A stretch of DNA of 64,000 bases from an uncultured Actinomycetes bacterium (GTDB taxonomy: Bacteria > Actinomycetota > Actinomycetes > Nanopelagicales > Nanopelagicaceae): contig CAILXX010000001.1 of assembly GCA_903838295.1 (NCBI GenBank), forward strand, positions 186,001 through 250,000, in the 5' to 3' direction. The position numbers were made by a program, and so were the translations under genes. The notes beneath the pieces are model-generated. The model saw nothing but the letters and a program-made list of their open reading frames with translations, made no database searches and was not told the DNA's origin. Below are positions 50,687 to 63,835 of the stretch, piece by piece. Position 1 is the first letter of the stretch, and each line of letters starts with the position of its first letter.

Positions 50687-50923
50687 ATGCCAAAAGTTCT
50701 GTTCTATGCCGCCGCTCGCGCAGCTGCTGGTGTCACGCAAGCAGAAATAAGTGCGCAGACCTTAGGAGAGTTAGTCACAAATCTTGGCAAGAGCCTCCCC
50801 GCGCTGGGCAAGGTCTTACCTGGATGCTCTTATTTGCTTAACGGAACGGCTTGTAAAGATAGTTCGACATTACTTTCTGATAGCGATCAGATTGATGTGC
50901 TCCCCCGATTTGCTGGAGGCTAA
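50687..50923 (+). CDS. moaD: MoaD/ThiS-family sulfur carrier
   Basis: The 78-aa ubiquitin-like protein ends in LPRFAGG; the terminal Gly-Gly is the site of thiocarboxylation. As the small subunit of molybdopterin synthase it passes sulfur to precursor Z with MoaE, encoded nearby. It is convergent with moaA, four bases apart. Confidence 0.88.
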   Translation: MPKVLFYAAARAAAGVTQAEISAQTLGELVTNLGKSLPALGKVLPGCSYLLNGTACKDSSTLLSDSDQIDVLPRFAGG

Positions 50924-50927
50924 TAAA

Positions 50928-51944
50928 CTATCCGCCGATAGCGGACATCGGACGCAATGGCTGAATAAAGTTTGGTTCGTTGATGCCATGTCCAGGCAAC
51001 TTGGCCATAACTGTTTCGTGGAAAGCTGCAGTGATCGCTTCATATTTCTGATCGTGAGAGATATCAGGATTACGTAGAATTGACCGTAAATCGGTCTCTG
51101 ACATTGAGAACAAGCAGTTACGGATCTGTCCATCAGATGTCAACCGCACTCGATCACATGCTCCACAGAACGGCCGGGTCACGCTGCCGATAATTCCAAC
51201 AATTTCCGGTCCGCCGTTAATATAAAACTCTTCGGCAGGCGAGGAGCCTCGATTATCAACCGGACTCAATGTGAACTCTTGCTGCAAGTCTGCATAAATC
51301 TCATCAGCAGTAATCAAGTCCGTACGACTCCAGATTCCACCTGCATCTAGCGGCATCTGCTCAATAAATCGCAAATTTAAACCTTCCGAGAGCGCCCACT
51401 TAAGTAGCGCCGCCGATTCATCATCATTAATGCCGCGGAGCAAAACTGAATTAATTTTTAGCGGCTTAAGACCGGCCGCTCTGGCCGCAGCAATTCCTGC
51501 GAATACATCGTCGATCCGGTCGCGGAAAGTCATCTCTTTAAAACGTTCTCTGCTAAGCGTATCCAAGCTGATATTGATCCGCTCAAGTCCGGCATCTACC
51601 AAAGGTTTGGCAAGTTTTGCCAGGGCAAGTCCGTTGGTTGTCATCGACAACTTAGGAGCATTCTTGATCCCATTAATGCGAGCCACGATTTCGACAATAT
51701 CGGGGCGAAGCAACGGTTCGCCACCAGTCAGACGAATCTCCTCTATCCCCTGCGAGACAGCAGCCTCGATAACAGTAATTAACTCATCAGTCGTCAAAAG
51801 GCTTTCGTTAGGTAACCAAGCCGCAAAATCGTGGGGCATGCAATAGGTGCAGCGAAGAGAACAGCGATCTGTCAATGAAACGCGCAAGTCACGATGGACA
51901 CGACCGTACGTATCTACTAGTTGCGTCATGCGTTGTTTACCCAT
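50928..51944 (-). CDS. moaA: GTP 3',8-cyclase MoaA
   Basis: The 338-aa radical SAM enzyme makes the first molybdopterin intermediate from GTP. The SAM cluster is in DRCSLRCTYCMP, the second cluster cysteines are in FCGACDRVRL and RNCLF, and the C terminus ends in SAIGG, the Gly-Gly tail needed for activity. It overlaps the end of moaE by 19 bases. Confidence 0.96.
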   Translation of the reverse strand: MGKQRMTQLVDTYGRVHRDLRVSLTDRCSLRCTYCMPHDFAAWLPNESLLTTDELITVIEAAVSQGIEEIRLTGGEPLLRPDIVEIVARINGIKNAPKLSMTTNGLALAKLAKPLVDAGLERINISLDTLSRERFKEMTFRDRIDDVFAGIAAARAAGLKPLKINSVLLRGINDDESAALLKWALSEGLNLRFIEQMPLDAGGIWSRTDLITADEIYADLQQEFTLSPVDNRGSSPAEEFYINGGPEIVGIIGSVTRPFCGACDRVRLTSDGQIRNCLFSMSETDLRSILRNPDISHDQKYEAITAAFHETVMAKLPGHGINEPNFIQPLRPMSAIGG

Positions 51945-52339
51945 TCATCCGTGCCATCTGCAAACACTTGGTGCTTCCAGATAGGGAGTTCGGCCTTGAC
52001 CACTTCAACAATCTCTTGGCTAGCGGCAAAGGCTGGCCCTCGATGTTTCGCAGACACTACCACTACAAATGCGCTCTCGCCGATTGGGATCAATCCGTAG
52101 CGGTGCGCTACGGCCACTCCCAAGACTTCGTGCTTTGCGGCCAATCGAGTAACAATCTCTTCGATCACTGCTGGAGCGGAAGGATGGATTTCATAGGTTA
52201 ATGAGAGCACCTTCCTCTCGCCATCATTATCTCTGACATCCCCAGAAAAACTAGCGATGGCGCCAGCTGCAGGATTCGTTACCAAAGCGGTCAGCCGAGA
52301 TACCGAAATCGGCTGGTCAGTTACTTGGGCTGTGATCAT
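51926..52339 (-). CDS. moaE: Molybdopterin synthase large subunit MoaE
   Basis: About 137 aa with the PAAGAIASFSGDVRDN segment, the AVAHRYGLIPIGESAFVVVV core and the C-terminal PIWKHQVFADG. It converts precursor Z to molybdopterin with MoaD. The ATG at 52339 (MITAQVTDQP) is preferred to an in-frame start at 52387, since it gives the usual family length. Confidence 0.93.
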   Translation of the reverse strand: MITAQVTDQPISVSRLTALVTNPAAGAIASFSGDVRDNDGERKVLSLTYEIHPSAPAVIEEIVTRLAAKHEVLGVAVAHRYGLIPIGESAFVVVVSAKHRGPAFAASQEIVEVVKAELPIWKHQVFADGTDEWVNNA

Positions 52340-52802
52340 GGCCCTCAACCTGGTCATGTATGTGGCTTGCCAATTGCCCGATAACAATCAACCCATCTTT
52401 AACTCCACCTGGCGATCCAGGAAGATTGATTATCAACGTCTTTCCATTCAGACCAACCAAGCCACGCGATAAATCAGATGTTACAACTTTTAAACGACCA
52501 TAGGCTCGAAGCGCTTCAGCAAAACCCGGAATTACTTTCTTGATCAACGGCGCTGTTGCTTCTGGAGTCACGTCCATCGGGGAAACACCAGTACCACCTG
52601 TTGTAACTATCAGATCTACACCAGAAGAAATTCCTTGTGAAATTGCATGAGAGATCTGTTCAATATCATCTGGCAATATCGTTGATGGCCCAACTTCGTA
52701 ACCCAATTTTGCTAAACCTTCAACCAAAAGTGCTCCCGAACTATCTTCGTAAACTCCGGTCGCAGCACGATTGCTGGCAGTAATGACAACAGCGCGCTTC
52801 AT
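52317..52802 (-). CDS. MogA/MoaB-family molybdopterin adenylyltransferase
   Basis: About 161 aa with the TTGGTGVSPMDVTPEA motif that binds molybdopterin. It adenylates molybdopterin before molybdate insertion. The ATG at 52802 overlaps the moaC stop (ATGA). The MoeA partner that inserts the metal is not in this window. Confidence 0.92.
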   Translation of the reverse strand: MKRAVVITASNRAATGVYEDSSGALLVEGLAKLGYEVGPSTILPDDIEQISHAISQGISSGVDLIVTTGGTGVSPMDVTPEATAPLIKKVIPGFAEALRAYGRLKVVTSDLSRGLVGLNGKTLIINLPGSPGGVKDGLIVIGQLASHIHDQVEGHDHSPSN

Positions 52803-53272
52803 TGACGCTGCCAAAGACCGTTTCGGCCACCATCTTTTTCATCCACTCTTACATCGATGATTGTGGCTGCGGGATCAAGCGCCTTGACCATATCGATGAT
52901 AGTGAGTGAAGCAATAGAAACAGCGGTTAGGGCTTCCATTTCGACGCCAGTCCGATCCGCTGTCTTAACTTTTGCAACTATTCGAACGCCGTCAGCAACA
53001 ACCTCGAGGTCAACTGATACGTTCGACAAGGCAATGGGATGACACAATGGAATCAACTCTGGCGTCTTTTTCGCCCCCATGATGCCAGCAATTCTTGCTG
53101 TAGCAAGAACATCTCCTTTAGGAGCAGTCCCATTAGCAATCAGGGCCAAAACTTCTTTACTCAAGATAACTTTGCCAGAAGCCGTTGCGGTGCGAACCGT
53201 TGTTGCGCGATCCGAAACATCCACCATGTGGGCTTCGCCCTTGTCATTGATATGCGTCAATCCGTCGCTCAT
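52799..53272 (-). CDS. moaC: Cyclic pyranopterin monophosphate synthase MoaC
   Basis: The 157-aa enzyme has the LTHINDKGEAHMVDVSDRA opening, the PLCHPIALS motif and the TGVEMEALTAVSIASLTI helix. It acts with MoaA to form precursor Z. It follows the modB gene by 17 bases on the same strand, so uptake and synthesis genes form one unit. Confidence 0.95.
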   Translation of the reverse strand: MSDGLTHINDKGEAHMVDVSDRATTVRTATASGKVILSKEVLALIANGTAPKGDVLATARIAGIMGAKKTPELIPLCHPIALSNVSVDLEVVADGVRIVAKVKTADRTGVEMEALTAVSIASLTIIDMVKALDPAATIIDVRVDEKDGGRNGLWQRQ

Positions 53273-53289
53273 TGGGCAATCTTATGCGA

Positions 53290-54081
53290 TTAAGACTTAA
53301 ATGACTCCCGCAGTGGTCTGCGTAGGAAGAAGATGACGCTCACCGCAATGAGAACCATTAACAGGCTTAAGGCGTAGGCCGTCTGCGGGCTGATATCTAG
53401 CTCTTGGTATATCTGCATGGTCCAAGTCTGCGTTGTGCCAGGTAGTGACCCCGCAAACATCATGGTCGCACCAAACTCTCCAAGAATTCTCGCCCAAGCT
53501 AAGACCAACCCGGTGACGATTCCGCTTTGCGATTGCGGAATGGCGATCAGGCGGAAGAGTTGTCCGTCAGATGCTCGGTCAATTACCGCGGCATCTTCAA
53601 TATCTTTTGGCAGTTGTCTAAAGTTTGATTCGGTTACCAACACTAAAAAAGGTAGGCCCACAAATACTCCAGCAAAAATCACCGCATAAACCGTAAATGG
53701 CATCTGCCAATTAAAGGCTTTGTAAATTGGCTGCCCCAATAACCCTTTGCGGTCCAGTAATCCCAGTAAGGCTAAGCCCGCGACGGTAGGTGGCAGAGCA
53801 ATTGGTGCTAGAACAATTGGTCTCACGATATTGCTAATCCGGTTAGAGCTGCGAGTCAGCCACCAAGCAAGTGGAACACCGAGAACCAAACAAATTATTG
53901 CAGCCAACACAGAAGTCCACAGCGAAAGTTTTACGGCAGTGAGCGAACCATCGCCCTTAATACTCACAAAAAATGTTGACCAAGGAACCTTTACAATCAA
54001 AGCAATAATCGGCAGACCAATGACGGCAATTGCCATCCATGAAAGAACGCGACTTATGGGGTCAGTACCGCGCCGTCTCAT
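53290..54081 (-). CDS. modB: Molybdate ABC transporter permease
   Basis: The 263-aa protein has about six membrane helices and the permease EAA-like loop EDAAVIDRASDGQLFRLIAIP (its centre near 190) that contacts the ATPase. It is overlapped by modA upstream by four bases. No ATPase gene (modC) follows: the next gene is moaC. Confidence 0.9.
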   Translation of the reverse strand: MRRRGTDPISRVLSWMAIAVIGLPIIALIVKVPWSTFFVSIKGDGSLTAVKLSLWTSVLAAIICLVLGVPLAWWLTRSSNRISNIVRPIVLAPIALPPTVAGLALLGLLDRKGLLGQPIYKAFNWQMPFTVYAVIFAGVFVGLPFLVLVTESNFRQLPKDIEDAAVIDRASDGQLFRLIAIPQSQSGIVTGLVLAWARILGEFGATMMFAGSLPGTTQTWTMQIYQELDISPQTAYALSLLMVLIAVSVIFFLRRPLRESFKS

Positions 54082-54848
54082 TGTGAAATCATAAACCCAC
54101 TGGCCGCCAAGAACTTCTTCGCATTGTGCCCATTTAGGTAGTCATAGACCGTCTTGGCCCAGTGGTTCTTCGCGGTTGCGCTCGAATGGGATATCCCCAA
54201 TTGGTACTGAGTCGATGCTGCCACCGGATCACTGAAAGAGATTGCCTTCAATTTTGTCGAATTGGCAATGACATCTGTCTTATAAACGATAGCGGCATCG
54301 ACAGAACCTGCCAACAATTTTGCTAGTGCATTTGCATCAGAGCTTTCAAGTGAGACTGGATTAGTTACTACTGTTCCTTGCGCCTTCAACGCAGCGTCAG
54401 CGGCGATTCCACAAGGCACGGTATGACCACACTGCAACCATTTAGTTGAACCATTCAAGCCCACCACGGTGGAGATACTCGACGACTTGGATAACGCAAC
54501 AACTACTTGATTTGAAACATAGTTAAAAGGAGCTGGGATCTGCGCAGAGACAGATGTCATCGCTAAAACATCTGCTGACGCGAAGATATCTGCAGGTGCA
54601 CCAGAATTAATCTGGGTTGCCAAGGTGGTTGATGAACCAAAAGAAAATTTGATAGTGACACCTGGATGGGCTGCTTGAAACGCAGCGCCGAGGGCCGTGT
54701 ACGCCTTGGTAAGGCTTGATGCCGCAAACACGGTCACGGTCTTGGACCCACCATCGGCAAAGGTGATTGCTGGGGTCGTTATGAGGCCGATTCCAAGGAA
54801 AGCCGAGGCGAATACTCGAAAACGTCCGGTCTGCTTTCCCATATACAT
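54078..54848 (-). CDS. modA: Molybdate-binding periplasmic-type lipoprotein or secreted protein
   Basis: The 256-aa solute-binding protein has a signal sequence (about 10-33, ending TFADGG), the VTVFAASSLTKAYTALG start of domain I and the ADIFASADVLAM segment that binds the anion. No lipobox cysteine is visible. The start could be the ATG at 54842 instead. It is divergent from the 86-aa gene at 54912. Confidence 0.9.
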   Translation of the reverse strand: MYMGKQTGRFRVFASAFLGIGLITTPAITFADGGSKTVTVFAASSLTKAYTALGAAFQAAHPGVTIKFSFGSSTTLATQINSGAPADIFASADVLAMTSVSAQIPAPFNYVSNQVVVALSKSSSISTVVGLNGSTKWLQCGHTVPCGIAADAALKAQGTVVTNPVSLESSDANALAKLLAGSVDAAIVYKTDVIANSTKLKAISFSDPVAASTQYQLGISHSSATAKNHWAKTVYDYLNGHNAKKFLAASGFMISQ

Positions 54849-55198: not shown

Positions 55199-56086
55199 TT
55201 GAGCAATAACTCTGACTTCACTTCGCTTACCGTCGAAAAACTTAGCGCCGATCTGCGCGGCCACGGTTATATCTCTGATCGTGGATTAACCACCTCTTTA
55301 CTCATTGCCATGAAATTAGGCCGCCCAATCTTGCTAGAAGGTGAGGTAGGCGTGGGCAAGACCGAACTCGCCAAGACCGTAGCCCAGATGTATGGCCGCA
55401 CTTTGATCCGATTGCAGTGTTATGAAGGTATCGATACAAATCAAGCTTTATACGAATGGGATTATGCCCGACAGATGCTTCAGATCCGGACCATGAGCGG
55501 GGATCAACTAACAGAAACATCAGTTGATGACTTATTTGGCCCTAAATTCTTGATCGAGCGTCCGCTTCTACAGGCGATTCGTGCTGGTGATCAATGCGTT
55601 CTACTTATCGATGAAGTGGATCGAGCCGATGACGAATTCGAAGCATTCCTACTCGAACTCCTCTCTGATTTTCAGATCACAATTCCAGAAATTGGAACAG
55701 TCAAAGCAGCATCAAGGCCAATCGTTATTTTGACCTCAAATCGCACCAGAGAACTCCACGACGCTTTGAAGCGCCGCTGCTTGTACAACTGGATTGGATT
55801 CCCTGACGCGGCCCAAGAGATAGAAATTGTTCAATCACGGGTTCCTGGAATTGGCGAAAAACTTGCCGCAAAGGTTGTTGGGGCTGTCAATAAATTGCGT
55901 GCCATGGACTTAGAGAAATCCCCCGGGGTTGCAGAGACAATCGACTGGGTTCAATCACTAGATGCAATTGGTGCAAGTGATCTAAGTGAAGATAACGCCG
56001 CACAAACATTAGGCGCAGTCATCAAAGGTCGTGACGATTTAGATTACGTCAATAACAATATTACGGAGATTGTCTCCGGTGTCTGA
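55199..56086 (+). CDS. coxD: MoxR-family AAA+ ATPase, CoxD-like
   Basis: The 295-aa ATPase has Walker A GEVGVGKT at 48-55, a Walker B LLIDEVDRADDEF near 135-147 and the sensor region VILTSNRTREL. CoxD in Oligotropha matures the copper-sulfur-molybdenum site of CO dehydrogenase. The VWA partner follows directly, a standard MoxR-VWA pair. The start is a TTG; TAAGGG lies about 12 bases upstream. Confidence 0.88.
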   Translation: MSNNSDFTSLTVEKLSADLRGHGYISDRGLTTSLLIAMKLGRPILLEGEVGVGKTELAKTVAQMYGRTLIRLQCYEGIDTNQALYEWDYARQMLQIRTMSGDQLTETSVDDLFGPKFLIERPLLQAIRAGDQCVLLIDEVDRADDEFEAFLLELLSDFQITIPEIGTVKAASRPIVILTSNRTRELHDALKRRCLYNWIGFPDAAQEIEIVQSRVPGIGEKLAAKVVGAVNKLRAMDLEKSPGVAETIDWVQSLDAIGASDLSEDNAAQTLGAVIKGRDDLDYVNNNITEIVSGV

Positions 56087-57203
56087 TGGCTTCGACGAAC
56101 TCTTTGTCGAATTTAGCCAAGAATTACGTAGCGTCGGTCTGGTTATCGGCTCTGATGATGTAATCTCATTTTGTCAGGCTGCCGCCGAATTAGATCCGAC
56201 CGATGTCATGGACATTTACTGGAGTGGGCGAACCACTCTGATCCGTCGGCGCGATAATATCCCAACATATAATGCAAAGTTCCAGGAATTCTTTCTTGAT
56301 ATAAGTGAAACAGAAACCGATCAACGCAAGGTCAAAATTAAAGCTTCTGTCAGTACTACCGCAACACTAGAAGTCCCCAACGTCGAAGAAGGCCAACCGG
56401 GCGACAGCGAAGAAGAATCCAAAATGGGTTTTATGGCGGCCACAAATGACTTGTGGCGCAGCAAAGCATTTGCAGAATGTACACCGCAAGAGCTTGCATC
56501 GCTCCGTAAAATGATTTCTACCCTTCGACTCTCTCCCCCAATTCGTAAGACTCGCAGATTGCAATCTGTCTCAAAGGGCACGCGATTAGATATGCGCAAA
56601 ATGGTCCGAGAAACAATGCGGGCGCATGGCGAACCCCGAGAACTTTTCTACAACAAACGGAAAGAAAAACTACGCACCATTATTTTTATTCTCGATGTCT
56701 CTGGTTCAATGGCTGATTACTCACGTAATCTCTTGCAAATGGCTTATTCTGCGCGGCGAGCCAATGCCAAGGTAGAAGTTTTCTGCTTTGGAACCCGACT
56801 TACTCGAATCACCAAATTACTGAGCAAGCGCAGCCCTGATGAGGCAATGGAGCAAGCTGGCGCTTCGGTATTGGATTGGGATGGGGGAACACGAATAGGC
56901 GACTCGGTAAGGACTTTTATTAAGGATTGGGGTCGGACGCGGGTCGGACGCGGGTCGATCGTGATCATTTGTTCTGACGGGTTAGATAGAGGAGATCCCG
57001 CTGTCCTGGCAAAGGCGATGGAAGAGCTGGCTCGGATCGCTTACCGAGTCCTATGGATGAACCCACACAAAGGAGATGCTCTACAGTTCGTACCCAACAC
57101 GATGGGAATGATGATCGCGGATCCATTCATTGACGAGGTTGTATCAGGACATAATTTGAAGAGTCTGGAAGAATTCAGTCGGAAGCTCACGGCAATTCGT
57201 TAG
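56079..57203 (+). CDS. coxE: VWA-domain protein, CoxE-like
   Basis: About 374 aa with a helical N-terminal half and a von Willebrand A domain carrying the MIDAS DVSGSMADYS near residue 206. CoxE acts with CoxD to finish the active site of CO dehydrogenase. The GTG at 56079 has GGAG ten bases upstream; the TTG at 56070 is too close to it. An 11-base repeat GGGTCGGACGC occurs twice at 56930-56951 within the gene. Confidence 0.87.
   Translation: MSDGFDELFVEFSQELRSVGLVIGSDDVISFCQAAAELDPTDVMDIYWSGRTTLIRRRDNIPTYNAKFQEFFLDISETETDQRKVKIKASVSTTATLEVPNVEEGQPGDSEEESKMGFMAATNDLWRSKAFAECTPQELASLRKMISTLRLSPPIRKTRRLQSVSKGTRLDMRKMVRETMRAHGEPRELFYNKRKEKLRTIIFILDVSGSMADYSRNLLQMAYSARRANAKVEVFCFGTRLTRITKLLSKRSPDEAMEQAGASVLDWDGGTRIGDSVRTFIKDWGRTRVGRGSIVIICSDGLDRGDPAVLAKAMEELARIAYRVLWMNPHKGDALQFVPNTMGMMIADPFIDEVVSGHNLKSLEEFSRKLTAIR
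56930..56957 (+). repeat. 11-base tandem repeat in coxE
   Basis: GGGTCGGACGC at 56930-56940 is repeated exactly at 56941-56951 and followed by GGGTCG. The unit is not a multiple of three, so loss or gain of a copy would shift the frame of coxE just after its middle. The present copy number keeps the family-typical WGRTRVGRGSIVIICSDG reading. Confidence 0.8.
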
Positions 57204-57211
57204 GAGTAATC

Positions 57212-57499
57212 ATGAAATTCAGTGTCTCGTTATATGCAGAAGGTGATCGCGAAATCGAGCTCGCCGAAGTCGTGGAATTTGCGGATGCAGTCGCGATGTA
57301 TAGCGGCATAGCAACAGGCGCCGGAACAATGACATACGGAGCCCAACTCGTGATCGAGGCACCTAACTCTGATATCGCCGTCGATAAGGCGATTGAGATC
57401 TTTGCCAATGCGGCTGTCATCGCGAAGATGCCAGATTGGCCGGTCTCCAAGGCAGAGACAATGACTGAGGATCAGGATTGGGAAGACGCCTTCGAATGA
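57212..57499 (+). CDS. Unknown 95-aa protein after coxE
   Basis: A small acidic soluble protein with predicted strand-helix-strand-helix order: KFSVSLYAEGD, ELAEVVEFADAVAMY, GAQLVIEAP and DKAIEIFANAAVIAKMPDWP. A GGAG lies about seven bases before its ATG. It follows coxE by eight bases and overlaps the next gene (ATGA). I recognise no named family. Its position suggests use in cofactor maturation or regulation of CO dehydrogenase, which is inference only. Confidence 0.7.
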   Translation: MKFSVSLYAEGDREIELAEVVEFADAVAMYSGIATGAGTMTYGAQLVIEAPNSDIAVDKAIEIFANAAVIAKMPDWPVSKAETMTEDQDWEDAFE

Positions 57500-57936
57500 T
57501 CCGTTTAGGTTCCCTTGCAGGTTATCCATTTGAAGGCCCTCGCGCATTAGCTGGCTGGACGCCAGTCAAAGTTGCGGCCGTTTATACGATCATGTCATTA
57601 AACGATGCAGTAAATAAACCACAAGAATTTTCCACTATTTATGTCGGTCACAGTGCGGACCTGACGACCGAAGGATTCCCTTTTAAGCATCCTCGCTCCC
57701 CTGCATGGGTTGCACGCGCCGGAAACAAGTTCAATTTATATATCTGCTGGTACGAAATTCCTGGTGGATCCGAACGTCATCGCGAACAAATTGCACGCGA
57801 GCTAATGGCGGTCTATCAACCAAGCTGTAATGTCGAACAATACGATCAAGCGTGGAAAGACGAATGGATCGGTGAATACTCAAATGCATTCACCGATCCA
57901 TTGACAACTACTCGCGATCCGAATAATCGCACATAG
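57496..57936 (+). CDS. Small protein with GIY-YIG-like pattern
   Basis: About 146 aa. The segment VAAVYTIMS followed by FSTIYVGHSADL resembles the GIY...YIG core of GIY-YIG nucleases, with AVY for GIY and YVG for YIG. Later HREQIARELMAVYQPSCN resembles the part carrying the metal-binding Glu. The usual catalytic Arg is not clear, so activity is doubtful. The start ATG overlaps the previous stop. It ends eight bases from the convergent minus-strand array. Confidence 0.65.
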   Translation: MIRLGSLAGYPFEGPRALAGWTPVKVAAVYTIMSLNDAVNKPQEFSTIYVGHSADLTTEGFPFKHPRSPAWVARAGNKFNLYICWYEIPGGSERHREQIARELMAVYQPSCNVEQYDQAWKDEWIGEYSNAFTDPLTTTRDPNNRT

Positions 57937-57943
57937 TTTTAAA

Positions 57944-58306
57944 CTACTTTCCGATAAAGCCGACTCCGTCTAATTGACGTGAGCGACGGGTACCCATCGC
58001 CGGGAAATTTGGCGGACGATCGTCAGGATTTTCCGTAGGCTTATATGTAGCACCGGTAACAATGGCCTCTGCAAATGTATAGAGAAGAGGCAACGCGCCA
58101 GCAACTATGCCGCCAGTTGTATTAATACGCTCAAGTCCTGGTTCGATGATGTCGGCATCTTTTTTGATCTCCCAGACCAAATCAGCAGCTTCTTCAAGCT
58201 TGCCGGCAACTGTCTTGAGTTGGCGACCAACGATAAAGAGATAGATGGCAAGACCAGCGATCAGAGCCACGACGTCGATAACGCTGAATATTTGTAGACC
58301 CTTCAT
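57944..58306 (-). CDS. Small membrane protein, array member 5
   Basis: The 120-aa protein has one N-terminal membrane helix (about 8-27, VIDVVALIAGLAIYLFIVG), then a basic GRQLKTVAGKL turn and an amphipathic helix rich in Glu/Lys/Asp (LEEAADLVWEIKKDADIIEPG). A second, weaker hydrophobic stretch is at about 68-88. The tail is polar with PTENPDDRPPNF. It is the longest and last of five similar genes and overlaps the previous one by four bases. Basic residues after the helix predict a cytoplasmic tail. No known family recognised. Confidence 0.78.
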   Translation of the reverse strand: MKGLQIFSVIDVVALIAGLAIYLFIVGRQLKTVAGKLEEAADLVWEIKKDADIIEPGLERINTTGGIVAGALPLLYTFAEAIVTGATYKPTENPDDRPPNFPAMGTRRSRQLDGVGFIGK

Positions 58307-58578
58307 GAGCGCACCTTATCTAGTACACGGCCCAAGAACAGGTGATGTTCTAGACCTTCGGCAAGAACAGCATCGACCCCACCAGCTGTGATATCAATAA
58401 GAGCAGTATCGGCCGTGTTTGCTTTCGCAGCCGTCAAGGTTGCCTTTATTTTGGTGACACGAATATCAATGGTTCGAACCAGCACCACTAGGATCGTAAG
58501 TAGCGCTGCAACTGCAACGACTACAACTGCTCCAAGGATATCTGCGACGAGCCAGAGTGTATGAACTTGTGATGACAT
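58303..58578 (-). CDS. Small membrane protein, array member 4
   Basis: The 91-aa protein has a membrane helix at about 9-34 (LWLVADILGAVVVVAVAAL and more), followed by RTIDIRVTKIKATL and a helical tail with an Ala/Thr-rich centre and a GLEHHLFLGRVLDKVRS end. Its first half resembles that of member 3, with W-L-V near residue 10 in both, which suggests they are duplicates. It overlaps member 5 by four bases. Confidence 0.78.
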   Translation of the reverse strand: MSSQVHTLWLVADILGAVVVVAVAALLTILVVLVRTIDIRVTKIKATLTAAKANTADTALIDITAGGVDAVLAEGLEHHLFLGRVLDKVRS

Positions 58579-58583
58579 CTTCT

Positions 58584-58838
58584 TCAGCCTCCCAGTCTCT
58601 TACGGCCACGCGTTAAGCCCGCGATAACCGCTAACGCATATTCGATAGTTTTATTGAGTCCTTTGAGGCCAGAAGTTGTAACGACCGCCTCTTCAAGACC
58701 TGCATTAATTCGCTTTGCTTGGCCACCAATTTTGTGAGCCAAGAGGAGGATTGGAACCACGAGTGCTACAACTACAAGCACGACCACAGTCGCGATGATG
58801 TAACCCACGAGCCATCCGCTATGTCCAGTAAAGTTCAT
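58584..58838 (-). CDS. Small membrane protein, array member 3
   Basis: The 84-aa protein has a long hydrophobic helix at about 9-34 (GWLVGYIIATVVVLVVVAL then VVPILLLAH), a basic turn KIGGQAKRI and a helical tail ending RGRKRLGG. It resembles member 4 in the first half. It lies 12 bases after member 2 and five bases before member 4. Confidence 0.78.
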   Translation of the reverse strand: MNFTGHSGWLVGYIIATVVVLVVVALVVPILLLAHKIGGQAKRINAGLEEAVVTTSGLKGLNKTIEYALAVIAGLTRGRKRLGG

Positions 58839-58850
58839 TTCATATCCCCC

Positions 58851-59078
58851 TTAGATCGATTCCGCGAAGTCGCGAACCGGCTTGAGGCTGGCATTGACCG
58901 AATCGACAACTGGTTTTACCGTTGAAGTCTTCGCCACAATAACTTGAACTCCACCGTCAAGGGCATCGAGTGCTTTAACTACTGCACGCAGGTGCAAGAT
59001 GACTCGAATCAATCCGAGTGCTGCAGCGGCGATGATCAGCGTAGCTAAGTACAAAGTATAAACTGCTTCTGTTGGCAT
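58851..59078 (-). CDS. Small membrane protein, array member 2
   Basis: The 75-aa protein has a membrane helix at about 7-28 (YTLYLATLIIAAAALGLI), a basic RVILHLRAVVKAL turn and an amphipathic helix VKPVVDSVNASLKPVRDF. It is the shortest of the five. It starts 12 bases after member 1, each time with a GGGGAA-type ribosome site in the gap. Confidence 0.78.
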   Translation of the reverse strand: MPTEAVYTLYLATLIIAAAALGLIRVILHLRAVVKALDALDGGVQVIVAKTSTVKPVVDSVNASLKPVRDFAESI

Positions 59079-59090
59079 TTATGGTTCCCC

Positions 59091-59345
59091 TTATCCAAGC
59101 AACTTAGAAACTGGTCCGGCGTAACGGACAGCACCGTTAGCAACTTCGGCTATCACATTGTCGGTCTTAGCCAACAATTCTGGAGTTGTGTTGAGTTCGC
59201 CGATCAGTGCGACTCCTCCGGCAAGTGCATCGTCAGCCGCGCCACGAATTCGCTCTAGTGGTCCAAGGACCAGATTGAGCAATGTAACGAGAACTGGAAC
59301 GATAACAATAAGTAGAACTAAGTTACCGATTCCCCAAAGGCTCAT
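59091..59345 (-). CDS. Small membrane protein, array member 1
   Basis: The 84-aa protein has a membrane helix at about 6-27 (IGNLVLLIVIVPVLVTLLN), then PLERIRGAADDALAGG and a helical tail ending GAVRYAGPVSKLLG. It follows coxG by 24 bases with an AGAGAGGAAA ribosome site. It is the first of the five-gene array, so the whole set is probably the 3' part of the cox operon. Confidence 0.78.
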   Translation of the reverse strand: MSLWGIGNLVLLIVIVPVLVTLLNLVLGPLERIRGAADDALAGGVALIGELNTTPELLAKTDNVIAEVANGAVRYAGPVSKLLG

Positions 59346-59369: not shown

Positions 59370-59957
59370 CTATCGACGTGCAACGGGTTGATAAGGCAAC
59401 ATGAAGCGAGACCAGATACGGAAAGCTGCTCGCTGAACAACGGTTATTCCGATAGAAATTCCGCTGGCCGCCTTCGGTCCACCTACTGAATTTGGATCTA
59501 GACCCATTGAAATCGCCTTCATGCGACTCTTCATGCTGCCGGCAGTTTGATTTACCAAGACTGCGGTTACGTCGGCTACCAATCCGCGACCGAACTGTGC
59601 TGCAGCACCAGAAATAACGAGATCTAACGAGATATTGACTCGAGTACCTGTCGCAATCGGGACAAGTGCGGCGGTGAGCATCGCTTGCGCTTCACCACGA
59701 CCTTTGCGGTCGGCACCTGATGCGTCGATATGAATAATTTTCTTAGCATTGTCTCGGCTAGTGACCTTTGCAGCACCTGCAAATTCGAGCTTAACTGGAC
59801 CAGCAGAGATGATCACATTGCCTTCGTAATGGTCTTCGCCAACCTTGTTGGTCAGGTCTGCGCCAGGTATACAGGCAGCAACTTGTGGGACGTCGTCGAA
59901 GAATTTCCAGACTGCGTCTATCGGTTGATCAACATCGATCGCTTGCGAGATTAGCAT
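59370..59957 (-). CDS. coxG: CO dehydrogenase accessory protein CoxG (SRPBCC fold)
   Basis: The 195-aa protein has a START/SRPBCC domain (VDQPIDAVWKFFDDVPQVA at the start, CIPGADL near 33-39, YEGNV near 48) and a C-terminal hydrophobic and basic helix (SIGITVVQRAAFRIWSRFM, about 165-185). Recent work on CoxG describes membrane binding and quinone delivery to CO dehydrogenase. The C-terminal helix here fits a membrane anchor. Its start overlaps the XdhC-YHS gene by seven bases. Confidence 0.9.
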   Translation of the reverse strand: MLISQAIDVDQPIDAVWKFFDDVPQVAACIPGADLTNKVGEDHYEGNVIISAGPVKLEFAGAAKVTSRDNAKKIIHIDASGADRKGRGEAQAMLTAALVPIATGTRVNISLDLVISGAAAQFGRGLVADVTAVLVNQTAGSMKSRMKAISMGLDPNSVGGPKAASGISIGITVVQRAAFRIWSRFMLPYQPVARR

Positions 59958-60904
59958 TTTGCCTCCTGATTGATAAACGAGGTTGGATCTTTTTCAAATG
60001 ATGCACGACATCCTGGAGCACAGAAGTAATACGTCGTACCTTCAAAAACAAATGGTCGATTCGACTTATCAGCTGCGACAGTCATGCCGCAAACGAGATC
60101 AATCGCTTCTTCCACTTGAAGAGTCTGAACTGCTGGAACAGATGCGGAGAAAACGCCGGCCGCACGGAGCTGGACAAGTTCTGCCAAAATCGAAACTGCC
60201 ATCTCTCGATGAGTCGTGTGTCCTAAATCCAAGCCAGCGGGCACTTTGATCTGATCAATCTGACTCTGAGTGAAACGGCGATCTTTAAGGTAAGAAAGGA
60301 CTGCCTGGCCACGTTTATGTGAGGCAACCACACCAAGGTAAGCAGGGTTGTAGGGCAGCGCGATTTCTGCGGCTTCTTCATCTCCATGTCCTTGAGTTGC
60401 AATGACTACAACACTCGAAACATTTATCGAGGAACCGTCAAAATCATTAAGGTCGAGTAGCTCTACGCGCCAATCCAAGGCCTCTGCCAAGTGGCTCAAA
60501 GTAATTGCCATTGGCGAACGCCCAACAACAGTGAGTCGTGGAGCGGAATGCATGGGTTCGACATAGATCTGAAGTGCACCTTCACTTTGACAGGCCATAG
60601 GAATGCTCATCACTCCATCAGGAACATGCATCCCTTGAAAATCACTCTCTTGCCCCAGCCAAATAAGTTGCGCTTTACCGGACTCCATAACCTTCTTCGC
60701 TTCGCGAATGAGTACAGGTTCGGCACATGCACCACCTATCCAGCCAAACAAGGTTCCATCGGCGGTAATAATCGCACGTGACCCACTCTGGCCAGATGAA
60801 GGACCTTGGCGCCAGACGACAGTAGCCATCACAAAGGATTCACCCTTTTGTGTCAGCTCTACTGCGCGTTCCATGACGCCTATACCTTCAACAGCCCGAT
60901 TCAT
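59951..60904 (-). CDS. XdhC/CoxI-family maturation factor fused to a YHS domain
   Basis: The 317-aa protein has the XdhC N-terminal part (GQSGSRAIITADGTLFGWIGG, about 38-58), a Rossmann-like C-terminal part (RLTVVGRSPMAITLSHL, about 123-240) and a YHS domain at about 268-312 with Cys272, Cys295 and Cys299. XdhC/CoxF/CoxI proteins insert or sulfurate the molybdenum cofactor. The YHS part may bind metal, possibly copper for the Cu-S-Mo site, which is inference. It follows coxL by eight bases. Confidence 0.87.
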   Translation of the reverse strand: MNRAVEGIGVMERAVELTQKGESFVMATVVWRQGPSSGQSGSRAIITADGTLFGWIGGACAEPVLIREAKKVMESGKAQLIWLGQESDFQGMHVPDGVMSIPMACQSEGALQIYVEPMHSAPRLTVVGRSPMAITLSHLAEALDWRVELLDLNDFDGSSINVSSVVVIATQGHGDEEAAEIALPYNPAYLGVVASHKRGQAVLSYLKDRRFTQSQIDQIKVPAGLDLGHTTHREMAVSILAELVQLRAAGVFSASVPAVQTLQVEEAIDLVCGMTVAADKSNRPFVFEGTTYYFCAPGCRASFEKDPTSFINQEAKC

Positions 60905-60912
60905 GGTCTCTA

Positions 60913-63294
60913 TTATTCGCCGTTCCGTACTGGAGGCATCCCATAAACATCTTTACCTGTTGTGAGTGCTTCATAGACACGGTTTGGCATTAGCGGCATA
61001 TCAACGTTGCGAACACCTTTCTCTTTCAGGGCGTTCATAACAGCGTTAACGAATGCTGCGGGACCACCTACGGTCGCACACTCACCAATTCCCTTTGCAC
61101 CAATTGGATGGTGTGGGCAAGGAGTTACAACTTCGTAAAGCTCGAATCCTGGAGTCTCCCAAGCTGTTGGCAGCAAGAAGTCCATGTAGTTGGCACCGAT
61201 GCAGTTACCATCTTCATCGTAGGTTTGATACTGCATATTAGCCATTGCATACGCTTCTGTAAGTCCACCCATGATCTGTCCTTCGACGATCATTGGATTA
61301 ATACGAACACCACAGTCATCCACTGCAACGAATTGCAATACATCCCAGACGCCGGTCTCTGGATCGATTTCGACCTTTGCGATGTAGCATGCAAACGGCC
61401 ATGTCAGATTTGGTGGATCGTAGTACGCATTGTTTTCCAGACCTGGCTCCATGCCATCTGGCATATTGCTGTAAGCAGCCATCGCACACTCTTGGATGGT
61501 TACGCCACGGTCCTTGTTACTGCGGACATAGAATCTACCTAGCTCCCACTCGATATCTTCTTCAGATACTTCAAGTAGGTGTGCCGCGATCTTGCGAGCC
61601 TTCGCTCGAATTTTGCGAGCAACCATTGCAACAGCCGCGCCAGCTACTGGCGTGCTTCGAGATGCGTAAGTACCCATTCCGAATGGCGCAGTATCTGTAT
61701 CGCCCTCTTCAACCAAAATATCTTCTGCAGGTATACCGAGCTCGTGAGCAACAATCTGTGCCCATGTGGTCTCGTGTCCCTGACCCTGAGTCTTTGCACC
61801 GGTGCGCAAAATTGCTTTGCCAGTCATATGAACTCGAAGTTCTGCAGAATCAAACATCTTGATTCCTAGAATGTCATATTCTCGGCTGTTACCAGCACCT
61901 AACGGTTCGGTCATTGTCGAAATTCCGATACCCAAAAGGCGTCCACGCTTCGCAGCTTCTGCCTTCTCTGCTTCGAAATTCTTATATCCGATTGCTTCTA
62001 GTCCAATATCGAGACATTTTCCGTATTGGCCAGAGTCGGTTAAGAAACCGAATGGTGTGCGGTGTGGGAAATCGTCATCTTTCACGAAGTTGATGCGACG
62101 GAATTCCGCCTGATCCATTCCTAGATCATCAGCCGCAGCCTGCACCATACGCTCTTGGAAGAACATAGCTTCTGTTACGCGGAAGGAACAGCGGTATGCA
62201 ACTCCACCTGGCGCTTTATTTGTGTAATAACCAGTCGAGAACATATATGCAGTTGGAATGTCATAGCACGCAAAGGCAGAGTGCATCAGACCAATTTTGA
62301 ACTTACTTGGCTGGGCATCTGCAAAGAAGGCACCATGATCAGAGACTGTGTTCATACGAACGCCAAGAATCTTTCCATCTTTACGGAGCGCCAATTCGCC
62401 CTTGAGGTAAACATCGCGACCAAAGCCGGTCGAGATCAAGTTACCAGTCTTATCTTCGATCCACTTGACTGGCTTCTCGGTCAAAATAGAAGCAAGAATC
62501 GAGATTACATATCCAGGGTAAACAGGTACTTTGTTACCAAAGCCGCCGCCAATATCTGGTGAAACGATACGGATGTTCTGCTCTGGCAGTTCTGCCACAA
62601 GAGCAACAGCTGCGCGCACAATATGTGGTGCTTGCGAAGTCATGTACACAGTCAGCTTGCCGGTAGCGCGATCGTAATCAGCCAACGAACCACAGCACTC
62701 AATTGGTGATGGGTGCGTGCGTGGATAATGAAGTTCGATCTTGGAGACCACATCAGCATCATCAAATGCCTTATCTGTCCGAGACTTATCTCCAATTTCC
62801 CAGTCAAATACCTTGTTGCCGACTTGGCCTTCCTTGTCATCACGAATCTGCACTGCATCTGGCGCAGCAGCCTGCACTGGATTAACAATCACAGGCAGAA
62901 TTTCGTAATCAACAACGATCGCAGCACAAGCATCCTTGGCAATATATGGATCATCTGCAATAACGGCACAGACTTCTTGTCCCTGGAAGCGGACTTTATC
63001 CGTTGCCAAAACAGCAGCCGTGTCATAAGAAAGCGTTGGCATCCATGCCAGGTTACGAGCAGCCATCATCTCGCCGGTCAAGACCAAGCGAACTCCTGGC
63101 ATATCCCATGCCTTGCTTGTATCAATCGACTTAATGCGAGCATGCGCTACTGGGCTACGCAGGATCTCCATATGCAACATACCTGGAAGCACGATGTCAT
63201 CCACATAGTTACCTTTTCCGCGAATAAAGCGGTTATCTTCAACACGACGGCGACTTGCGCCCATTCCGCCGATCTTGATTTCGTCTAATGACAT
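60913..63294 (-). CDS. coxL: Aerobic CO dehydrogenase large subunit, form I
   Basis: The 793-aa molybdopterin subunit carries AYRCSFR at 366-372, the active-site loop that defines form I CoxL; Cys369 would bind copper. Glu738 in GAKGIGE corresponds to the base near molybdenum. The GGGFGNK (248-254) and GQGHETTWAQI (504-514) segments contact the cofactor. The enzyme oxidises CO to CO2 in the cytoplasm and passes electrons through CoxS and CoxM to quinone. It lies 13 bases after coxS. Confidence 0.95.
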   Translation of the reverse strand: MSLDEIKIGGMGASRRRVEDNRFIRGKGNYVDDIVLPGMLHMEILRSPVAHARIKSIDTSKAWDMPGVRLVLTGEMMAARNLAWMPTLSYDTAAVLATDKVRFQGQEVCAVIADDPYIAKDACAAIVVDYEILPVIVNPVQAAAPDAVQIRDDKEGQVGNKVFDWEIGDKSRTDKAFDDADVVSKIELHYPRTHPSPIECCGSLADYDRATGKLTVYMTSQAPHIVRAAVALVAELPEQNIRIVSPDIGGGFGNKVPVYPGYVISILASILTEKPVKWIEDKTGNLISTGFGRDVYLKGELALRKDGKILGVRMNTVSDHGAFFADAQPSKFKIGLMHSAFACYDIPTAYMFSTGYYTNKAPGGVAYRCSFRVTEAMFFQERMVQAAADDLGMDQAEFRRINFVKDDDFPHRTPFGFLTDSGQYGKCLDIGLEAIGYKNFEAEKAEAAKRGRLLGIGISTMTEPLGAGNSREYDILGIKMFDSAELRVHMTGKAILRTGAKTQGQGHETTWAQIVAHELGIPAEDILVEEGDTDTAPFGMGTYASRSTPVAGAAVAMVARKIRAKARKIAAHLLEVSEEDIEWELGRFYVRSNKDRGVTIQECAMAAYSNMPDGMEPGLENNAYYDPPNLTWPFACYIAKVEIDPETGVWDVLQFVAVDDCGVRINPMIVEGQIMGGLTEAYAMANMQYQTYDEDGNCIGANYMDFLLPTAWETPGFELYEVVTPCPHHPIGAKGIGECATVGGPAAFVNAVMNALKEKGVRNVDMPLMPNRVYEALTTGKDVYGMPPVRNGE

Positions 63295-63307: not shown

Positions 63308-63835
63308 CTAGTTAGATTCCGCGCGCATTTTTTCAGCAGCCCAAAGAACTGCCTTCACAATATTTTGATATCCGGTACAACGACATAAGTTGCCCGATAG
63401 TGCCCATCGAACTTCATCTTCGGTTGGGTTCAGATTTTTTTCGAGAAGTGCGGTAGCTGCCAACATCATTCCCGGTGTGCAGAAACCACATTGCAATCCA
63501 TGCTTCTCTTTGAAGCCTTCTTGAATTGGATGAAGTTCGCTAGCAGAAGCTAAGCCTTCGACCGTCTTTACGCTATGTCCATCAGCTTGCACTGCAAGCA
63601 TCGTGCAACTCTTGATTGGACGACCGTCAAACAAGACAGTGCATGCACCGCAGTTGGTGGTATCACAACCCTTGTGAGTGCCGGTCAACTTCAATCCTTG
63701 ACGCAGTAGGTCAGCTAGAAGTAAGCGAGGCTCGATATCGGCCGTACGTGGCTCTCCATTTACAGTGATCGTGACGCGACGAATCGGAATGTCGCTGGAA
63801 GGAGGGGTTGCTATTTCTTCAAAGAGGCTCGACAT
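63308..63835 (-). CDS. coxS: Aerobic CO dehydrogenase small subunit
   Basis: The 175-aa iron-sulfur subunit has the plant-type [2Fe-2S] ligands Cys57, Cys62, Cys65 and Cys77 and the second cluster ligands Cys116, Cys119, Cys151 and Cys153. It carries electrons from the Mo site to FAD. It starts one base after the coxM stop (TGATATG), in the standard M-S-L order. Confidence 0.96.

Follow-up and report, generated by a model that had tools for sequence, protein, structure and literature searches.

The closest described counterparts of the gene set analysed here are HylTM1-5, five short transmembrane (TM) proteins of the group 1l [NiFe]-hydrogenase that are published and, as far as the account of that enzyme goes, uncharacterised (PMC9561532). 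For the group 1m hydrogenase, two small proteins of 82–92 aa with a single TM and no identifiable domains are described (PMC9561532); compared by description only, they resemble our proteins in size and in the single TM, but are two instead of five. By function alone, the parallel is HucM of the group 2a hydrogenase Huc, a 188-aa protein that forms a homotetramer peripheral to the membrane and whose C-terminal coiled-coil tube with a hydrophobic lumen links the soluble hydrogenase to the membrane and carries menaquinone (PMC10017518). Huc apart, little is established about how soluble dehydrogenases of trace gases gain access to the quinones of the membrane. CoxG has been tied to the anchoring of CO dehydrogenase (CODH) and, in mycobacteria, to menaquinone delivery. 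Our literature search found no paper linking a set of the present type to CODH.

The set lies in a stretch of 64,000 nucleotides from an uncultured actinobacterium (hereafter the window). Five consecutive same-strand genes for proteins of 75–120 aa follow coxG, and the open reading frames reported in a preliminary description of this DNA were confirmed at 59345-57944 on the minus strand; we name them A–E in order of transcription downstream of coxG (Table 1). The spacing within the set is 12, 12, 5, and −4 bases, in keeping with the gaps of at most 13 bases or overlaps given earlier, which do not extend to the 24 bases between coxG and A. The set occurs once in the source genome. With dN/dS of 0.05–0.21 against four Nanopelagicales relatives, where dS could be estimated, A–E are real coding genes, and chance and mis-annotation are excluded. 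Searches against Pfam and NCBIfam returned only sub-threshold matches, none over the cut-off, a PDB sequence search with the D and E profiles gave nothing meaningful (the weak E matches being designed coiled coils), and tblastn of E against plasmids gave no match.

Table 1. Features of the cox locus in the window, with positions counted from the first base of the window
Feature	Position	Strand	Description
moaD, moaA, moaE, mog, moaC, modB, modA (apparent)	50687..54848		Read by eye from translations; adjoining the cox locus
Convergent maturation operon moxR(coxD)-coxE-orf95-orf152	55199..57936	plus	Kept beside the A–E module in related loci
orf95, 95 aa	57212..57499	plus	Unannotated, downstream of coxE
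orf152, 152 aa	57478..57936	plus	Unannotated, downstream of coxE
Gene E, 120 aa	57944..58306	minus	CODH-type C-terminal extension with PAxGxRRSR; B/E subfamily
Gene D, 91 aa	58303..58578	minus	C-terminal motif EGLxHHLFLxRV of CODH type; a single unbroken helix in the AF2 model
Gene C, 84 aa	58584..58838	minus	Single TM and predicted cytoplasmic tail; A/C/D subfamily
Gene B, 75 aa	58851..59078	minus	Single TM and near-ideal heptad tail; B/E subfamily
Gene A, 84 aa	59091..59345	minus	Single TM and predicted cytoplasmic helical tail; A/C/D subfamily
coxG, 195 aa, SRPBCC-like	59370..59957	minus	PF06240 E=4.7e-17, 62.5 bits vs cut-off 22.2
XdhC/CoxI-type maturation protein with C-terminal YHS (metal-binding-type) domain	59951..60904	minus	Domain search
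coxL, form I	60913..63294	minus	Motif AYRCSFR; TIGR02416 1093.6 bits vs cut-off 991
coxS	63308..63835	minus	

The CoxL motif and its TIGR02416 score bear out the assignment to a form I CODH operon, and a 289-aa gene occupies the coxM position just outside the window (L179). Since no MHYT-domain protein was found in the whole source genome, coxC-, coxH-, and coxK-type proteins, reported earlier as missing from the visible part, are absent genome-wide; the source genome also has no [NiFe]-hydrogenase (PF00374). A–E share their operon with CoxG (PF06240) but differ from it in fold. Molybdenum cofactor and molybdate transport genes near the cox locus are expected with a Mo enzyme.

All five proteins are paralogous, with profile cross-hits defining A/C/D and B/E as two related subfamilies, so that the third and fourth members, previously taken for duplicates, are indeed paralogues but not special in this respect. 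Each has one TM stretch, as described, and in 205 of 212 homologues the stretch just behind the TM is richer in K+R than the one preceding it, a positive-inside pattern that agrees with the earlier placement of the tails in the cytoplasm. Over the first 50 tail residues, the averaged profiles of all five families have a hydrophobic periodicity of 3.40–3.51 residues (permutation p 0.0005–0.036 per family), and B and E show near-ideal heptad a/d positions, with a/d hydrophobicity up to 3.3/4.0. AF2 models D as a single helix over residues 3-90 (pLDDT 81.7) and E, weakly, as a helix over residues 2-86 (pLDDT 67). Together, topology, periodicity, and AF2 models are consistent with a TM-anchored heteromeric coiled-coil stalk.

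We searched one-per-species genomes for coxG and obtained 27 loci. The order coxG-A-B-C-D-E was found in three Pseudonocardia genomes and in Nanopelagicales-type contigs of sufficient length (a few end too early to show it whole), and thus recurs at cox loci elsewhere, where the preliminary description had proposed to look for it; four Acidimicrobiia-like loci (L024-L027) have no A–E set downstream of coxG. Three records of metagenome-assembled genomes titled Streptomyces griseus, Bacteroidales, and Bifidobacterium breve (L005, L012, and L028, respectively) contain Nanopelagicales-like cox contigs and are probably mislabelled or mixed bins.

In an order-level count of 201 genomes (coxL at E ≤ 1e-200, gene D at E ≤ 1e-4), gene D was present in 13/13 genomes with form I coxL and in 1/188 others. 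In 12 of these 13 genomes, a few kilobases of one contig separate the two genes, and the thirteenth (G569) has a partial coxL at a contig end. In the single D-bearing genome with no detected coxL (G488), D lies ∼2 kb from the contig start, and coxL may have been lost beyond the contig end. At phylum level, 40 of 396 genomes matched the D profile at E ≤ 0.01, and the 37 stronger matches were used: coxL exceeded its cut-off in 21/37 module genomes vs 35/359 others (Fisher p = 9e-11, kinship uncorrected), and 35 of the 37 also had gene A. The form I motif was present in every CODH partner checked. Conversely, 35 of the 56 coxL genomes of the phylum set have no gene D; many form I CODH loci thus do without the set, which is not obligatory for CODH.

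We then used clean A–E alignments as profiles on the 40 regions around the D matches, with genes called by a coding-score script. CODH or [NiFe]-hydrogenase genes lie near the set in 35 of these regions. Like HylTM1-5 as published, homologues of A–E are interposed between the hydrogenase small and large subunit genes on one strand, as hydS-C-D-E-A-B-hydL, in L063 (cut before hydS), L065-L068, L097, and L070 (also cut). Elsewhere, C-D-E adjoins hydS-hydL with A-B a few kilobases off (L094 and L096), all five stand together near hydrogenase genes (L059, L061, L072, and L095), or only part of the set is recognisable beside hydS-hydL (L076-L078). The hydrogenase-linked and cox-linked proteins align over their full length, and the profiles assign the former one-to-one, though B and E of the interposed clade are less clearly separated; in L061, for example, C, D, E, A, and B score 48, 47, 44, 70, and 51 bits, each well over the other four profiles. 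Judged by this homology, the set is not CODH-specific; it is one membrane module common to two unrelated trace-gas dehydrogenases. The preliminary description had named wide occurrence of the genes without cox genes as evidence against its idea, and at hydrogenase loci they do, literally, so occur; because this second partner is also a trace-gas dehydrogenase feeding the respiratory chain, the idea is widened and not refuted.

Five regions have no adjoining enzyme (L064, L086-L088, and L098). The genome with L064 also has a hydrogenase-linked copy, which makes L064 its second, and L098, from a 78% complete genome (G393), has no partner enzyme in view. L086-L088 hold C-D-E with DUF255-like and penicillin-acylase-like genes alongside; L086 and L088 have the CODH-type D end HHLFLTRV and are grouped with cox-linked sets in a tree, and in the genome of one of the three (G167) A-B lie on another contig, ∼5 and 17 kb from coxL. 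The set can therefore be split between loci. In a tree of the concatenated set, built by a quick method with long branches flagged, so that the root and long-branch joins are uncertain, window-type cox sets and the L086-L090 lineage form one clade, while L071, L073, and L074 (C-D-E-A-B near coxMSL) group with L064 in a second clade, and the remaining sets are linked to hydrogenases. This topology suggests that the set was coupled to CODH at least twice.

The module-linked large subunits group apart from four 1h references, except for a distant pair (L059_14035 and L095_3849). In a small control set of four 1h-type loci (C. necator, Streptomyces, Methylocystis, and M. intracellulare), no module was found, the best of the five profiles reaching E = 0.013; the 1h label is ours, based on adjacent small and large subunit genes and on the C. 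necator hydrogenase being cited as 1h (PMC9561532). Plasmid records contained no module-bearing locus of a named organism. The interposed hydrogenase loci fit the group 1l description as published, an assignment made from gene order and separation from 1h and not from a 1l reference sequence. The preliminary description knew of no described family; counterparts of all five proteins nevertheless occur beside [NiFe]-hydrogenases and match HylTM1-5 to the extent that these are described (PMC9561532).

Like HylTM1-5, A–E are a set of five short TM proteins; unlike them, on the published description, the window set follows coxG, has CODH as its partner, and runs A-B-C-D-E instead of C-D-E-A-B. Window-type CODH sets moreover bear conserved C-terminal ends in D and E (motifs in Table 1), which are absent from the hydrogenase-linked sets. 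Because the window genome has no [NiFe]-hydrogenase and its set stands after coxG, it represents a module homologous to HylTM, as the latter is described, and not the HylTM of a hydrogenase. With the link to CODH, the HylTM proteins of the group 1l hydrogenase, unexplained in their published description (PMC9561532), become part of a broader family.

CoxG differs between loci with and without the module. The window CoxG has no C-terminal TM anchor and terminates in a short basic amphipathic stretch, and in 10/10 module loci CoxG has no C-terminal TM (maximum 19-residue hydropathy 0.7–1.43), compared with a C-terminal TM in 5/8 copies sampled from module-free loci (1.84–3.14), a comparison uncorrected for kinship that leaves out the distant CoxG match of L071. 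An exploratory Fisher test included the Pseudonocardia loci (0/13 on the module side). L171 and L174 have a CoxG without a TM and no module. The tail pattern, kinship uncorrected, is compatible with the module replacing CoxG's own anchoring.

We propose, with a probability of roughly 60%, that A–E form a hetero-oligomeric adaptor through which CODH and CoxG dock at the membrane, allowing menaquinone to be reduced; we infer the docking, and quinone transfer is speculative. Each subunit would consist of one TM helix (N-out/C-in) extended into the cytoplasm by ∼50 helical residues of heptad-like periodicity, and the five tails, presumably assembled into one complex, would pair into a coiled-coil stalk. 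With cytoplasmic CoxMSL and CoxG kept at the membrane by this stalk, menaquinone would receive the electrons from CO. The CODH-type C-terminal ends of D and E, candidates for docking, probably confer specificity for CODH, and the same adaptor would have been coupled separately to a [NiFe]-hydrogenase clade (HylTM1-5 of group 1l, as described). A hetero-oligomeric platform for docking or quinone exchange had been suggested from the outset; five related single-TM proteins linked to form I CODH make a role at the enzyme–membrane interface likely, with docking the more conjectural and quinone exchange the speculative part. In function only, and with no homology claimed, an adaptor of this kind, with coiled-coil helices between a soluble trace-gas dehydrogenase on one side and the membrane and menaquinone on the other, would resemble HucM, with whose coiled-coil tube the heptad periodicity of the A–E tails is compatible; unlike the HucM homotetramer, five different single-TM proteins are involved.

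That the bundle itself conducts quinone is a speculative and rather doubtful extension. We hold equally tentatively the broader picture of a hetero-pentameric TM coiled-coil barrel with menaquinone in its lumen, a plug-in quinone-coupling adaptor for soluble dehydrogenases, unrelated to cytochrome b-type membrane subunits and recruited on more than one occasion, perhaps by hydrogenases and twice by clades of CODH. That enzymes as unrelated as Mo-Cu CODH and [NiFe]-hydrogenase are accompanied by one five-protein module points towards a coupling device common to both: a single, unstudied adaptor seems to connect these two trace-gas enzymes to the bacterial membrane. It further suggests that in Nanopelagicales, with their small freshwater genomes, the full unit from CODH to the membrane is present.

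The set might instead be a membrane-bound assembly or maturation factor, aiding cofactor insertion or assembly outside the working complex. It adjoins xdhC/coxI, moxR, and coxE in cox loci, and a co-transcribed maturation factor would be expected to show the same genomic pattern; yet hydrogenase and Mo-Cu CODH use the same five proteins although, to our knowledge, they have no active-site maturation chemistry in common, no metal-handling domain is recognised in A–E by Pfam or NCBIfam, and structural subunit genes, not maturation genes, flank the set in L065-L068 and L097, all of which makes this explanation improbable. Less probable again is a membrane scaffold or localisation device (clustering or domain targeting) that takes no part in electron transfer. 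Long single-helix coiled-coil proteins would suit it, as would a related larger trio with long coils and C-terminal Cys pairs (see below), but a scaffold alone does not account for the fact that both partners are dehydrogenases of trace gases and depend on the quinone pool. A CODH-specific invention without known relatives, in line with the missing Pfam, NCBIfam, and PDB matches, is refuted by one-to-one, full-length homologues of all five proteins at [NiFe]-hydrogenase loci. Chance or non-functional small hydrophobic ORFs, easily over-called as such ORFs are, are ruled out by the dN/dS values, the gene order kept in separate actinobacterial lineages, and the 13/13 co-occurrence with coxL.

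Two further groups of genes accompany the adaptor candidate. orf95 and orf152 gave no match against Pfam, the 152-aa protein is GIY-YIG-like by eye, and both genes are kept next to the module in L079-L084 and partly in L090, L178, and L189. Absent from the window locus, the trio T1-T3 of 180–270-aa paralogues stands next to all or some of the five genes, at cox loci as well as at hydrogenase loci (L059, L061, L072, L074, L089, L090, L095, and L177). All three proteins combine a single N-terminal TM with a long INxTA-type coil and a conserved Cys pair near the C-terminus (four Cys in one case). N-terminal charge suggests that T2 and T3 have a topology opposite to A–E, with the tail outside, and T1-T3 are possibly an outer-side counterpart of A–E.
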